DNA of 50,342 nt. It comes from Candidatus Poribacteria bacterium. Lineage in GTDB: Bacteria > Poribacteria > WGA-4E > GCA-2687025. Within the stretch, counting starts at the first letter, position 1. Each line of letters starts with the position of its first letter. Where the stretch lies: NCBI GenBank assembly GCA_016866785.1, contig VGLH01000012.1:1-50342 (forward strand). Direction: 5' to 3'. The position numbers and the translations under genes were made by a program. The notes beneath the pieces are model-generated. The model searched no databases. It was given only the letters and a program-made list of their open reading frames with translations, and was not told the DNA's origin. Below are positions 5,023-9,734 of the stretch, piece by piece.

Positions 5023-6558
5023 TCAGTCCGTCCAGTCGCGAGCCAACTGGGTCAGGAGCCGCGTACCGAACCCGCTGGCGCCTTTGACGGAATAGCCTGT
5101 CGTCTTGTCACTGGCGAAGACACCCGCGATGTCGAGGTGCGCCCAGGCGTGATTCCCGACGAACCGCTTGAGGAACGCCGCGCCCGCGATGGTTCCAGCG
5201 GCGCCACTCCCGACGTTCTTGATGTCCGCGACGTCGCTCTTGACGTCCTCATCATAGTCGTCCCACAACGGCAACTGCCACACGCGCTCGTGGGTCGCGG
5301 CGGCGGCGGCACGAACCCGATCCATGAGGGCGGCGGAGGAGTCATCTTCCCTTCCGAGCATGCCGCACGCTTGGTGTCCCAGGGCGGTGACGACGGCTCC
5401 GGTCAGCGTGGCAACGTCCACGACCGCCTTTGGGTTCAGCGACACCGCGTACGCCAGCGCGTCAGCCAGCACGAGGCGACCCTCGGCATCGGTGTTGAGC
5501 ACTTCGATGGTCGTGCCGCCATACGCCCGAACCACGTCGCCCGGACGCTGCGCGGTTCCGCTCGGCATGTTCTCCGCTGCCGCGACGATACCGACGACCC
5601 GTCTCGCGATCCCGAGCTCCGCGGCTGCGAGCACCGCTCCGATGACCGCCGCAGCGCCCGACATGTCGTGCTTCATCTCGACCATGCCGCCCGCCGTCTT
5701 GAGCGACAGTCCCCCGCTATCGAAGCAGATGCCCTTGCCGACGTAAACGAGCGGCGCTTCATCAAGGTTCGCGTTGTGTTCGAGCACGATGAGAGCGGGA
5801 GGGTTGGCGCTTCCCTGACCGACTGCGAGAATTGTGTTGAAGCCCTGCTCTCGGAGCTGCTCGGGCCCCAGAACGGTGCACGCCACGCCAGCCGACTGGG
5901 CGAGCGCCGACACGCGGTCAGCGAGGACAGCCGGCGGGAGGCGGTTCGGTGGCTCGTTGCTCAAGTCCCTGGCGATGATAGTCGCCCGCGCGATCGCCTC
6001 GCCGATGGCGGTCCCGCGCTTCAGCTCCTCCCGGCGTCCTGGGTCCGCATCCAGCAATGACATGGAGGCGAGGCGCTTGGGCGGACGTTTCGGGTCGGGT
6101 GAGCGGTATTCACAGAACTCGTACAGGCCCAGCAGAGCGCCTTCAGCCAGAGCTTGACCAACCGATTCGCCGGTTCCCGGCACGCCTGAGTGGAGAACGC
6201 TCCCGGCGGAGCCGAGCCCGAGTCCGCGCAGATGGCGCAGCGCGTTCCCCGACGCTCGGCGCAAACCTTCAGCCGTGACTTCATCGCGGGGTCCCAGACC
6301 GATGAGCAGCACGCGCGGCGCCGGGATGCGACCGTGGACATAGACCAGCGCGAGCTGATCCTTGCTGCCGTCGATGTCGCCCGACTCCAGCACAGACGTC
6401 AACACGCCTCCGAGCGTGTCGTCCAGTGACCTGCCTGCCGGACTGAGTTCCTTCTCGTGGAACACGCCCACGATGAGCGCATCGCCCTTGTAGAGGACGA
6501 ACTCGTTCCCGACCGTGATCGCCATCGGCTTCGCTTGGTCGTCGTTCGCGGCGGTCAT
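5023..6558 (-). CDS. pepA: Leucyl aminopeptidase (M17 family)
   Basis: Cytosolic di-metal aminopeptidase releasing N-terminal residues. The protein has 511 residues, the usual length. Hallmarks are VGKGICFDSGGLSLK, KHDMSGAAAVIGA and NTDAEGRLVLADAL, which hold the two-zinc ligands and the catalytic lysine and arginine. The last is the M17 signature. The N-terminal half is the regulatory macro-like domain. The ATG at 6558 directly abuts the TAG stop of the aldolase gene (TAGATG), with AAAGGA just upstream inside the preceding gene, so translation is probably coupled. In E. coli PepA also binds DNA; nothing here speaks to that. Confidence 0.95.
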   Translation of the reverse strand: MTAANDDQAKPMAITVGNEFVLYKGDALIVGVFHEKELSPAGRSLDDTLGGVLTSVLESGDIDGSKDQLALVYVHGRIPAPRVLLIGLGPRDEVTAEGLRRASGNALRHLRGLGLGSAGSVLHSGVPGTGESVGQALAEGALLGLYEFCEYRSPDPKRPPKRLASMSLLDADPGRREELKRGTAIGEAIARATIIARDLSNEPPNRLPPAVLADRVSALAQSAGVACTVLGPEQLREQGFNTILAVGQGSANPPALIVLEHNANLDEAPLVYVGKGICFDSGGLSLKTAGGMVEMKHDMSGAAAVIGAVLAAAELGIARRVVGIVAAAENMPSGTAQRPGDVVRAYGGTTIEVLNTDAEGRLVLADALAYAVSLNPKAVVDVATLTGAVVTALGHQACGMLGREDDSSAALMDRVRAAAAATHERVWQLPLWDDYDEDVKSDVADIKNVGSGAAGTIAGAAFLKRFVGNHAWAHLDIAGVFASDKTTGYSVKGASGFGTRLLTQLARDWTD

Positions 6559-7611
6559 CTACTGGCTGAGTCCTTTCAGCACGCTCCGTGTGACGGCTTC
6601 GACCAGTTCCTCAAGGTCCGAACCCGAAAGCCCCGGCGATGCGACGGTCGCCGATCCCGGTTCCTCAGTGTCCGATTGAGGAGCATCCGCGGACCCGATG
6701 GGTCGATTCGGCGGATAGCACACGTCGCACTCGACGCAGATGTCCGGGAACCGGTCGCAGACTCCGGCGCTGCCGAAGACCTGCATCTGCCTTGCGATGG
6801 TCGCGCGGATCGCCTGCCGCACCGTCGTCAGCAGCAGTGGGTAGCTGACAAGGTCCGGGTCGACTGTGAGCGTCTCACGGGCGGATTCGATGGCGGCGAC
6901 ACTCAATTGGGTGTAGTAGTTGATCTTGGCGATTCCGAGCGAGATGGCTCGTTTGAAGTCCCCATCGCTGACGCCGGTTCCACCATGGAGCACGATGGGC
7001 ATCCGTGTCCGACGGGCGATTTCTGCAAGCCGGTCGAAATCCAGCTTCGGCGTGCCCTTGTAGAGACCGTGAGCCGTCCCGAAAGAGATCGCCAGCGCGT
7101 CGATGTGCGTTCGACGCGCGAAGTCCTCTGCCTGGACGGGATCCGTGTAGAGGGACGGGTCCGCCTCGAAACGCTCGCTGGTGCCTTCGCCGCCGAGCAC
7201 CTGTCCGAGTTCGGCTTCGACGGTGACCCCCATCGCATGACAGACCCGGACGATCTCGGACGTCTCCCGGACATTCTCCTCGTACGGCAGGTGAGAGCCG
7301 TCGAACATCACCGACGTGAATCCCGCCCGAATCGCCCGCATGATCGTCTCGAACGTCTCGCCGTGATCCAGGTGGAGCGCGACTGGAACCGGAGCGCGTT
7401 CACCGGCGCGGCGCGCGACATGAGCCACGTCGTCGAGGTCGATGTACTTCAGATGGACCTCCGCGACGTCGATGATGACCGGCGACCGCTGCTCGGTTGC
7501 GACGTCGAGGATCGCCTGAAGCGTCTCGTACTCGGGCACATTGAAAGCGCCGACGCCGTAGCCGTGAGCTCGCGCGTGAGCCAGCAAGCCAGCGAGGTTG
7601 ACCAATGCCAT
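6559..7611 (-). CDS. Class II (GatY/KbaY/Fba-type) ketose-bisphosphate aldolase with C-terminal Cys-motif extension
   Basis: Zinc-dependent aldolase, 350 residues against roughly 280-310 for most relatives. The catalytic core is intact: HLDHGETFE (zinc histidine), SVMFDGSHLPYEENV, VEAELGQVLGGEG, ISFGTAHGLYKG and IVLHGGTGVSD. Whether the substrate is fructose-1,6- or tagatose-1,6-bisphosphate cannot be told by eye. The tail is unusual. Cysteines at 285, 292, 295 and 298 (C-x6-C-x2-C-x2-C) are followed by a linker rich in Ser, Pro, Gly and Glu, then a final amphipathic helix SDLEELVEAVTRSVLKGLSQ. The stop codon abuts the pepA start. No strong Shine-Dalgarno precedes the ATG. Confidence 0.9.
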   Translation of the reverse strand: MALVNLAGLLAHARAHGYGVGAFNVPEYETLQAILDVATEQRSPVIIDVAEVHLKYIDLDDVAHVARRAGERAPVPVALHLDHGETFETIMRAIRAGFTSVMFDGSHLPYEENVRETSEIVRVCHAMGVTVEAELGQVLGGEGTSERFEADPSLYTDPVQAEDFARRTHIDALAISFGTAHGLYKGTPKLDFDRLAEIARRTRMPIVLHGGTGVSDGDFKRAISLGIAKINYYTQLSVAAIESARETLTVDPDLVSYPLLLTTVRQAIRATIARQMQVFGSAGVCDRFPDICVECDVCYPPNRPIGSADAPQSDTEEPGSATVASPGLSGSDLEELVEAVTRSVLKGLSQ

Positions 7612-7636
7612 GGGTATCGTCCGTCGTGCGTGGGGT

Positions 7637-8515
7637 CTAGGCTGGATCGGCGGACTTCGGTTCGTCGCCAGGATCCGCGAGCGACTTCAGAGTAGCCAGA
7701 TTGCGCGCATGGTATTGTAGATCATCCGGCGTCTCGATGAAACACGGCACGTGGCGCAGCCGGGAGTCGTTGACGACCCGGCGGAACGGCTCGATCCCGA
7801 GGCTGCCCTCCCCCGGATGTTCGTGCCGGTCCACTCGCCCTCCGAGGTCGCACTTGGAGTCGTTCAGGTGGATCGCCATCACTCGGTCGATTCCGACGGT
7901 CTGGTCGAACGCCTTCCATGTCGCGTCGTACCCATCGCCGCGAAGGTCGTAACCGGCGGCGAACACGTGACACGTGTCGAAGCACACGCCGAATCGCGCA
8001 GACGGCTCCAGGCGCGCCAACAGTCGTGCCAAGTCCTCAAACCGGTCGCCGACCGAAGCCCCCTGCCCCGCCGACGTTTCGAGAAGCACGACGGCGGTTC
8101 CATCTGCCGCTGCGATGACCTCCTGGAGACCATCGACCACATGGGACATCGATTCCTCGCGCGACCCGTCGAGTCCCGATCCCACATGGAGCACCACGCG
8201 GTCGATGTCGAGCAGTGCACACCGATTCAGTTCCGCTTCGAGCGCCTTCCGTGAGTTGAGGCGGACGTTTTCCTTGGGAGACGCCAAGTTGATCAGGTAG
8301 GATGCGTGAGACATGACGATGGGATTGCCGTGCAGCGCGCGCTCTTCGCGATACTGCGAGAGCTCTTCCTGGGTGAACCGGCGCAGAGCGTGCTGACGCG
8401 GGTTCCCGGTGAACACCTGGATCACTTCGGCTCCGTACTGGTCCGCGCGTTCGAACGCAGTAGCCATGCCGCCGGCTGCGCTGACATGAGCCCCCAAGGG
8501 CGGGCGATTCGGCAT
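7637..8515 (-). CDS. nfo: Deoxyribonuclease IV (AP endonuclease IV)
   Basis: Base-excision-repair enzyme cleaving 5' to abasic sites with three zinc ions. The protein has 292 residues. The TIM-barrel metal motifs are all visible: LGAHVSAAGGM at the N-terminus, IQVFTGNPRQ, LETSAGQGASVGDRFEDL, FDTCHVFAAGYDLRGDGY, HLNDSKCDLGGRVDRHEHPGEGSLG and a C-terminal IETPDDL. Two adjacent ATGs exist; the one at 8515 shares its A with the DUF309 stop (TGATG) and lies behind GGGAGG. The TTG at 8527 is less likely. Co-directional with and coupled to the upstream DUF309 gene. Confidence 0.95.
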   Translation of the reverse strand: MPNRPPLGAHVSAAGGMATAFERADQYGAEVIQVFTGNPRQHALRRFTQEELSQYREERALHGNPIVMSHASYLINLASPKENVRLNSRKALEAELNRCALLDIDRVVLHVGSGLDGSREESMSHVVDGLQEVIAAADGTAVVLLETSAGQGASVGDRFEDLARLLARLEPSARFGVCFDTCHVFAAGYDLRGDGYDATWKAFDQTVGIDRVMAIHLNDSKCDLGGRVDRHEHPGEGSLGIEPFRRVVNDSRLRHVPCFIETPDDLQYHARNLATLKSLADPGDEPKSADPA

Positions 8516-8931
8516 CATTCCTCCCAATCACGCTGCAGCGAACCCAGGTCATCCAGCCCGATCCGTGGGACAAGATGGCGCGCGTACCCGAACTCGCGCC
8601 CGTCCGGGTCCTTCTCAATGCGCTCGGCGCATTCCCGAGCCCTGCTCAACAACGCGGACACGTCGATGCCATGGAACTTCGGCGCGTAGGCTGCCAGATT
8701 GGTCGAGCCCCGTCGCAGCAGGTTGACGGCTCCGCGCCGGTTCCCGTTCCGCCAGTGGTAGAACCCCACAGACAACTGGATGAGTCCCTGGTAGAAGGGA
8801 CGGCGGTTCTGCCGCCATTCAGAGCGCCAGACCTGCTCGAGCGTCTCATGCGCCTCGAAGAAGAGCTCGCGGTTGAACTCGTCGATTCCTCGACGAATCC
8901 ACTCGATCATGCTCACCGGTACATCGGTCAC
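8515..8931 (-). CDS. DUF309 domain protein
   Basis: Small helical protein of the DUF309 family; no biochemical role is established. The family signature is clear: EFNRELFFEAHETLEQVW, then RPFYQGLIQLSVGFYHWRNGNRRGAVNLLRRG. These contain the conserved E, H, W and Y residues suggestive of a helical-bundle ligand site. The start is taken as the GTG at 8931, whose bases overlap the stop of the rhodanese gene (GTGA), giving 138 residues. The ATG at 8910, immediately before IEWIRRG, is a possible shorter start. The stop overlaps the nfo start. Confidence 0.85.
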   Translation of the reverse strand: MTDVPVSMIEWIRRGIDEFNRELFFEAHETLEQVWRSEWRQNRRPFYQGLIQLSVGFYHWRNGNRRGAVNLLRRGSTNLAAYAPKFHGIDVSALLSRARECAERIEKDPDGREFGYARHLVPRIGLDDLGSLQRDWEE

Positions 8932-9734
8932 CGTGACACTTCGACCAGAGTCGACGGGTGGTTGCCCCACTCCGCCCAGGAACCCGCGTAGTTGCGCACA
9001 CGGGGGAACCCGAGCGCGCGCAGCACCCCGTACAACTGCGCCGAACGAAGACCGCGCTGACAGTAGACGACCACGTCCTTGTCCGGCGTGATCCCGCTGG
9101 ATGAAAGCTCAGCCCGCAGTGCGTCTGTCGCGCGAAGGGACGCGATGCCCGATGCATCGACGGCGAGCGTCCGCACCCAATCGAAGTGTACAGCGCCGGG
9201 AATGTGCCCCGCCTTCTGCGACTCGCGCTCCGCGCCGGAGTACTCGCCGGCAGACCGTGCGTCGACGAACACCACGTCCCCGTCGCCGATCCGCTCCATG
9301 ATCCACTCCATCGAAACGACCGAGGCGCGTTCCCCTCGCGGCGCGTAGGCGACGGAGCCCGACGACTGCATGGCGTTCGTCAGCGGCTTCCCTCTCGAAT
9401 GCCATCGACGGATCCCGCCATCAAGCATGGCGACGCCACTGTGGCAGACTCGATCCAGGAGCTGCAGCGCGCATCCGACCTGCATCAGCGATCCGTCGTC
9501 GTAGAGCACGACTCGATCCGTCGAGCGGATCCCTGCTGCGCTCAGCCAATCGCCGATCCGTCGAGTTGCCGCTGGGCTCGCGAGATCAGGCGAGCAGTGT
9601 CTCGTGACATCGAAGGTCAGGGCGCTTGGAAGGTGGGCTCGGGCAAACAAGGCGGAGGGACGCGCGTCGACGACACATGAACCCTGGGTCGGTTCCCAAG
9701 CGCCGGCATCGACGATCTCCACGGCGTCGATCAC
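8928..9734 (-). CDS. Rhodanese-type sulfurtransferase (thiosulfate/3-mercaptopyruvate)
   Basis: Two tandem rhodanese domains in 268 residues. The first is catalytically inactive-looking (VVDARPSALFARAHLPSALTFD ... VVLYDDGSLMQVG). The second holds the persulfide cysteine in VVYCQRGLRSA, with VDARSAGEYSGAERESQKAGHIPGAVHFDW before it. The CQRGLRS loop is closer to thiosulfate sulfurtransferases than to the CG-S/T-G-V loop of mercaptopyruvate enzymes; the donor is uncertain. The GTG start at 9734 overlaps the iscX stop by 4 bp. Adjacency to iscX suggests a sulfur-donor role in Fe-S or cofactor sulfur transfer, which is inference. Confidence 0.9.
   Translation of the reverse strand: MIDAVEIVDAGAWEPTQGSCVVDARPSALFARAHLPSALTFDVTRHCSPDLASPAATRRIGDWLSAAGIRSTDRVVLYDDGSLMQVGCALQLLDRVCHSGVAMLDGGIRRWHSRGKPLTNAMQSSGSVAYAPRGERASVVSMEWIMERIGDGDVVFVDARSAGEYSGAERESQKAGHIPGAVHFDWVRTLAVDASGIASLRATDALRAELSSSGITPDKDVVVYCQRGLRSAQLYGVLRALGFPRVRNYAGSWAEWGNHPSTLVEVSR

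Follow-up and report, generated by a model that had tools for sequence, protein, structure and literature searches.

A tailed class II aldolase of a Candidatus Poribacteria bacterium as probable microcompartment cargo

The aldolase gene, its barrel and its tail

The window, by which we mean the whole stretch of 50,342 nucleotides that was analysed, is an entire contig (C12) of a 4.35 Mb Candidatus Poribacteria genome in 291 contigs. On its minus strand, at positions 6559 to 7611, lies an open reading frame with an ATG start that encodes a class II (PF01116) aldolase of 350 amino acids, assigned from the ORF itself, Pfam, NCBIfam and an AlphaFold2 model, and in our view a probable microcompartment cargo. 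The catalytic barrel (positions 6763 to 7599, minus strand) spans residues 5-283 according to Pfam (PF01116, E 2.1e-96), an alignment with 20 homologues and Foldseek. Past the barrel the protein continues for 67 residues (284-350). This tail begins with a Cys4 motif, C285-x6-C292-x2-C295-x2-C298 (positions 6718 to 6759, minus strand), evident in the sequence and in the alignment of orthologues. It is followed by a disordered and poorly conserved linker of 32 residues (299-330; positions 6622 to 6717, minus strand), delimited by the AlphaFold2 model and by identity computed segment by segment. The protein ends in an amphipathic helix resembling an encapsulation peptide, SDLEELVEAVTRSVLKGLSQ (residues 331-350; positions 6562 to 6621, minus strand), for which the model, a tag profile and segment identity provide the evidence. 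A sequence-only reading of this DNA had described an intact aldolase core followed by about 65 extra residues, and that description stands; its linker of about 25 residues proved a little too short. In the AlphaFold2 model the barrel is well predicted, pLDDT falls below 50 at residues 292-327 and a helix is recovered at 330-349 (mean pLDDT by block 79 and 72).

Residues D82, H83, H181, H209 and N231 are invariant among the 20 homologues in the barrel alignment, and H83, H181 and H209 are taken to be metal ligands, as in GatY/KbaY. The general ketose-bisphosphate aldolase model of NCBIfam, TIGR00167, is passed with 279 bits (cut-off 215.6), and none of the narrow NCBIfam aldolase models reaches its cut-off, the best being PRK06801.1 (357 against 406) and TIGR01859 (302 against 343). 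Foldseek matches the barrel about equally well to fructose-bisphosphate, tagatose-bisphosphate and sulfofructose-phosphate aldolases. The GatY/KbaY, fructose-bisphosphate and sulfofructose-phosphate class II enzymes (1GVF, 7NCC, 8Q59) share the barrel and metal site, with 37-44% identity to the nearest solved structures; however, solved aldolases of the GatY/KbaY type stop at about residue 283 in the numbering used here and have no Cys4-linker-helix tail. Reading the substrate from the active-site residues was considered and rejected, as the fructose-bisphosphate, tagatose-bisphosphate and sulfofructose-phosphate aldolase structures are similarly distant. A second PF01116 paralogue, on contig C78 of the same genome, lacks the long tail.

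The neighbours of the aldolase gene encode a DUF309 protein, an AP-endonuclease and an M17 peptidase. In two related genomes, G001 and G005, DUF309 and the AP-endonuclease-type barrel apparently precede the tailed aldolase in the order seen here (window positions 5023-8970), and the M17 peptidase, which comes next in the window, apparently also follows in G005. This common gene order places the aldolase in a stable neighbourhood without a BMC gene. The earlier statement that the window holds no shell-protein gene is borne out, C12 being free of PF00936 and PF03319 domains, and none of the window's other predicted ORFs has a tag-like score against the profile described below.

Conservation of the tail and its likeness to encapsulation peptides

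All 12 orthologues of the tailed clade that were examined, from four phyla, have retained the tail. Seven of these are poribacterial (G000, G001, G003, G004 and G005 of family f1; G007 and G011 of f3), and in the alignment all seven have the four cysteines invariant, a variable linker and a terminal helix. The same Cys4-linker-helix layout occurs in the Clostridia DTU080 (locus L070), the Firmicutes UBA5435 (L072) and an Omnitrophota genome (L073). Two Actinomycetota aldolases, in L074 and L075, have the terminal helix with a three-cysteine variant from which C285 has been lost, so that dependence of the helix on the full Cys4 motif is not supported. In these two proteins (L074 10001-11014; L075 8894-9904) the cysteines are arranged C-x2-C-x4-C, and BMC genes are found elsewhere in both genomes, with none in the loci examined. 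Aligning the tail with those of related aldolases, as had been suggested, thus shows helix and cysteines kept down to about 43% identity, though two Actinomycetota are without C285. Compared with its poribacterial orthologues, the window protein is 57-80% identical in the core, 25-55% in the helix and 0-23% in the linker. That the helix and cysteines are conserved while the intervening linker drifts speaks for selection on the tail.

Among 90 homologues sampled, only 11 have tails of at least 50 residues, and the next longest tail has 24; the others stop near residue 283. A quick tree computed on the barrel alone groups the tailed proteins in one set of 13 rows with 98% support, two members of which are tail-less.

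Encapsulation peptides have been described as amphipathic helices of about 15-20 residues joined to the enzyme by a flexible, poorly conserved linker (PMC8217296, PMC12339742). The window tail corresponds to this description, with its predicted helix at 330-349, linker pLDDT below 50 at 292-327 and linker identity of 0-23%. To compare the helix with tags of unrelated enzymes we used a profile made from 30 cargo tags, taken from PF00596 and PF00701 aldolases, aldehyde dehydrogenase and PduL, with no PF01116 aldolase tail among them. The background was 3,347 peptides from predicted ORFs of the examined loci, known cargo and one suspected cargo (L201 6677-7438) being left out. All 11 PF01116 aldolase tails tested scored 9.6-23.0 bits, above every background peptide (best 9.0), and the window tail scored 14.8. 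The hydrophobic pattern taken by itself is less distinctive: the helix moment of 0.56 lies at about the 96th percentile and 3.6% of background C-termini equal or exceed it, so that the helix is amphipathic but not extremely so. The suspected cargo that was set aside, an unassigned protein encoded on the minus strand downstream of PduL in genome G042, has an encapsulation-like N-terminal helix (18.2 bits) and a weak match to TIGR02536 (eut_hyp).

Microcompartment genes in the same genome and in other genomes

A search of the rest of the genome for BMC shell domains, which the sequence-only reading had proposed, recovered nine PF00936 domains on contigs C27, C20 and C155 and three PF03319 (EutN_CcmL, BMC-P) domains, of which C71 has two and C3 the third. 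Shell domains therefore occur at five separate places, and the possibility that this genome is without a microcompartment is rejected. The window aldolase and these shell genes are on different contigs; in Poribacteria generally the aldolase gene is not near shell genes. Core enzymes are present as well. On C27 a PF00596 aldolase with a C-terminal helix, DAELTALITRVATEVLKERG, is followed by BMC-H and by an aldehyde dehydrogenase of the PduP/EutE type with an N-terminal helix, DEARVREIVAQVVGKLAG, which passes PRK15398 with 548 bits against a cut-off of 403. This trio is kept in the family members G005 and G002, with 69-75% identity in the aldolase, and is thus not a binning error. PduL, with an N-terminal helix, is encoded on C68, and on C20 PduS precedes BMC-T.

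Contig C155 encodes a PF00701 aldolase, a BMC-T and a protein in which the BMC domain occurs four times. The last of these is a single open frame (L012 1332-2483, minus strand) with four PF00936 domains, double the two of BMC-T, and a normal BMC-T adjoins it; no full-length relative was found in the 11 other genomes searched, and the frame may be due to contamination or assembly error. The PF00701 (DHDPS/NAL-family) aldolase beside it (L012 118-1281, minus strand, in G000) has an N-terminal extension. In G008 an aldolase of this family, which adjoins a BMC protein gene, bears a C-terminal encapsulation-like helix, SPQISRIVAEVLKQLKTDGIV (L194 9313-9999, minus strand).

The compartment link, originally a conjecture from the tail, is direct in two Firmicutes, where the tailed aldolase gene lies immediately upstream of BMC-H genes in a complete metabolosome operon. 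The genes of L070 run BMC-P, acetate kinase, tailed aldolase, BMC-H, BMC-H, PduL, PduS, BMC-T, aldehyde dehydrogenase, Etf subunits and a GlcD-type oxidase. Those of L072 run DeoR regulator, tailed aldolase, BMC-H, BMC-H, PduL, aldehyde dehydrogenase, PduS, BMC-T and PfkB kinase. Neither of these main loci has an aldolase besides the tailed PF01116 one.

Shell genes are present in all 12 genomes with a tailed aldolase. With the tail retained as well, neither outcome that would have told against the sequence-only reading was observed, and its compartment inference is supported. BMC domains occur in each of the five non-poribacterial tail carriers, and PF03319 shell genes in every poribacterial carrier, including the incomplete assemblies G001, G003, G004 and G011. 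We rejected genome-level co-occurrence as proof of a cargo role, because all 50 high-quality poribacterial genomes sampled have shell genes and six of ten tail-less control genomes have BMC genes, which makes it weak evidence. Genome G002 has the compartment and no tailed PF01116 aldolase, as do most Poribacteria, the bulk of the phylum (families f2, f6, f7 and f8) having shells with neither a tailed PF01116 nor a tagged PF00596 aldolase. The tailed PF01116 enzyme is therefore not a universal signature enzyme.

A tagged PF00596 aldolase was found in the window's own genome and in other members of f1, f3, f4 and f5. The Clostridia genome of L070 likewise holds both the PF01116 and the PF00596 kind, the latter at a second locus (L179) comprising two tagged PF00596 aldolases, BMC-P, BMC-T and acetate kinase genes. 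Given that these two genomes combine both kinds and that G008 has a tagged PF00701 enzyme, one shell may serve several aldolases.

Cysteines are concentrated near the tags of more than one cargo family. In the tailed PF01116 family they make up 5.3% of the last 80 residues and 0.8% of the remainder, and in PduL 3.8% of the first 60 residues and 1.0% of the remainder; in several PF00596 aldolases a CxxC precedes the linker. C-x2-C clusters such as CISCGFCATRSC directly follow the N-terminal helix in PduL of G007 (L173 504-1448), G008 (L192 1209-1922) and G042 (L201 7404-8165). Enrichment near the tag was rejected as a rule for all cargo, as aldehyde dehydrogenases have 0.45% against 1.35% cysteine, with that of L072 as an exception. 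Judging from these sequences, the junction of enzyme and tag could bind a metal or act as a redox switch. As for electron transfer, in G007 PduS is followed by a GGDEF/GAF protein and heterodisulfide-reductase-like genes (L173 3089-10019; HdrA-like by NCBIfam), which are a possible electron route from the microcompartment.

Proposed role and its place among known microcompartments

Our preferred explanation, which we hold with considerable confidence, is that the window aldolase is encapsulated microcompartment cargo. It is operon adjacency and the likeness of the helix to other tags, and not co-occurrence, that carry this argument. In the working model the terminal helix on its disordered linker would bring the aldolase into one shell with PduL and the tagged aldehyde dehydrogenase, the shell genes being located elsewhere in the genome. 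Regarding what the enzyme does there, we lean modestly towards ketose-1-phosphate cleavage as the compartment's aldehyde source. The zinc-type class II barrel would cleave a ketose-1-phosphate to DHAP and an aldehyde, this aldehyde half being unphosphorylated; the co-packaged dehydrogenase would oxidise the aldehyde to an acyl-CoA, PduL would convert this to an acyl-phosphate, PduS would handle the electrons and the Cys4 site may bind a metal, zinc or an Fe-S cluster having been suggested by the sequence-only reading. GlcD-type hydroxyacid oxidase genes lie beside BMC genes in L070, L187 and L190. They fit a hydroxy-aldehyde intermediate and suggest a hydroxyacid product such as glycolate or lactate.

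The reaction may also be read differently. The enzyme could be packaged and yet be an ordinary fructose- or tagatose-bisphosphate aldolase, one that acts on triose phosphates within the compartment by condensing or splitting DHAP/G3P and is not the source of the aldehyde, which the tagged PF00596 aldolase of the same genome could supply. The TIGR00167 match and a barrel equally like those of fructose-bisphosphate, tagatose-bisphosphate and sulfofructose-phosphate aldolases are what one would expect under such a scenario. Nevertheless we consider it the less likely of the two assignments, since every narrow aldolase model falls below its cut-off, the tailed enzyme is the only aldolase beside the aldehyde dehydrogenase in the main loci of L070 and L072, and the C78 paralogue could do the work of ordinary glycolysis.

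Two other explanations would dispense with packaging in this lineage. Conceivably the tail has nothing to do with microcompartments and serves oligomerisation or regulation in the cytosol, as a Cys4 hook that senses metal or redox state and is joined to a helix; conservation is indeed stricter in the Cys4 motif than in the helix, no packaging role is known for the motif, and in Poribacteria the gene is found outside shell loci. We regard this as improbable, since in two Firmicutes the gene directly adjoins BMC-H genes within an operon, the helix specifically resembles the tags that unrelated cargo enzymes carry, and a variable linker plus terminal helix agrees with the layout published for encapsulation peptides (PMC8217296, PMC12339742). 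The same location outside shell loci, and the patchy presence of the gene in Poribacteria, might instead mean that the tail was inherited from an ancestor with its aldolase in a shell operon and is now a relic that packages nothing. This strikes us as the least probable account of all, because helix identity of 25-55% against 0-23% in the linker, along with the retained cysteines, indicates selection, and the shell and core enzymes are still in the same genome.

If the window aldolase is indeed cargo, there is precedent for its presumed task. The PVM, GRM5 and ACI microcompartments use a PF00596 class II aldolase, that of ACI with a C-terminal encapsulation peptide (PMC8217296, PMC4207490). 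As proposed here, the aldolase supplies an acylating aldehyde dehydrogenase with its substrate within the shell, and the tag is a C-terminal helix; the DeoR regulator in L072 and the acetate kinase in L070 further recall PVM loci. The window enzyme differs in belonging to the unrelated PF01116 zinc-aldolase fold, in having the Cys4 motif and in being encoded far from shell genes in Poribacteria, and its genome also has a tagged PF00596 aldolase (C27), so that two folds may share one compartment. SPU (sugar phosphate utilizing) compartments likewise have a sugar-phosphate aldolase making aldehyde for a dehydrogenase, but they are defined by PF01791 (DeoC) and PF02502 (RpiB) (PMC8217296), whereas the window aldolase is PF01116. 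The main text of the 2021 catalogue (PMC8217296) makes no mention of PF01116, although its supplement may list PF01116 aldolases.

Poribacterial microcompartments were already known (PMC3909097). Degradation of 1,2-propanediol has been proposed for them (PMC5087111), and their loci have been filed as satellite-like, without a signature enzyme (PMC4207490). The FRAG types of the 2021 catalogue are described as combining a BMC-P triplet with shell genes scattered over the genome and as lacking a signature enzyme (PMC8217296), and the present genome resembles them in its shell genes at five places (C27, C20, C155, C71 and C3), its three BMC-P domains and its aldehyde dehydrogenase. In the descriptions of FRAG and scattered poribacterial loci, shell genes lie in up to six places with no recognised signature enzyme (PMC8217296, PMC3909097, PMC5087111, PMC4207490). 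What sets this genome apart from those descriptions is its two tagged aldolases, which are candidate signature enzymes.

More tentatively, the scattered, FRAG-like metabolosome might be fed by several unrelated aldolases, each with a tag of its own (PF01116, PF00596 and perhaps PF00701), and so be a general organelle for splitting sugar phosphates, in which the junction cysteine clusters of several unrelated cargo would bind metal or sense redox state and help to control cargo condensation. That several unrelated cargo enzymes have cysteines clustered beside the tag is in any case a feature in want of an explanation, and one open to direct testing. Tag searches can find cargo beyond locus-based catalogues, which stop 12 genes from a shell gene, and encapsulation tags on enzymes far from shell genes give a testable substrate class. 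For the poribacterial and FRAG types, whose aldehyde-producing enzyme has so far gone unrecognised in published accounts (PMC4207490, PMC8217296), the two tagged aldolases are concrete candidates.
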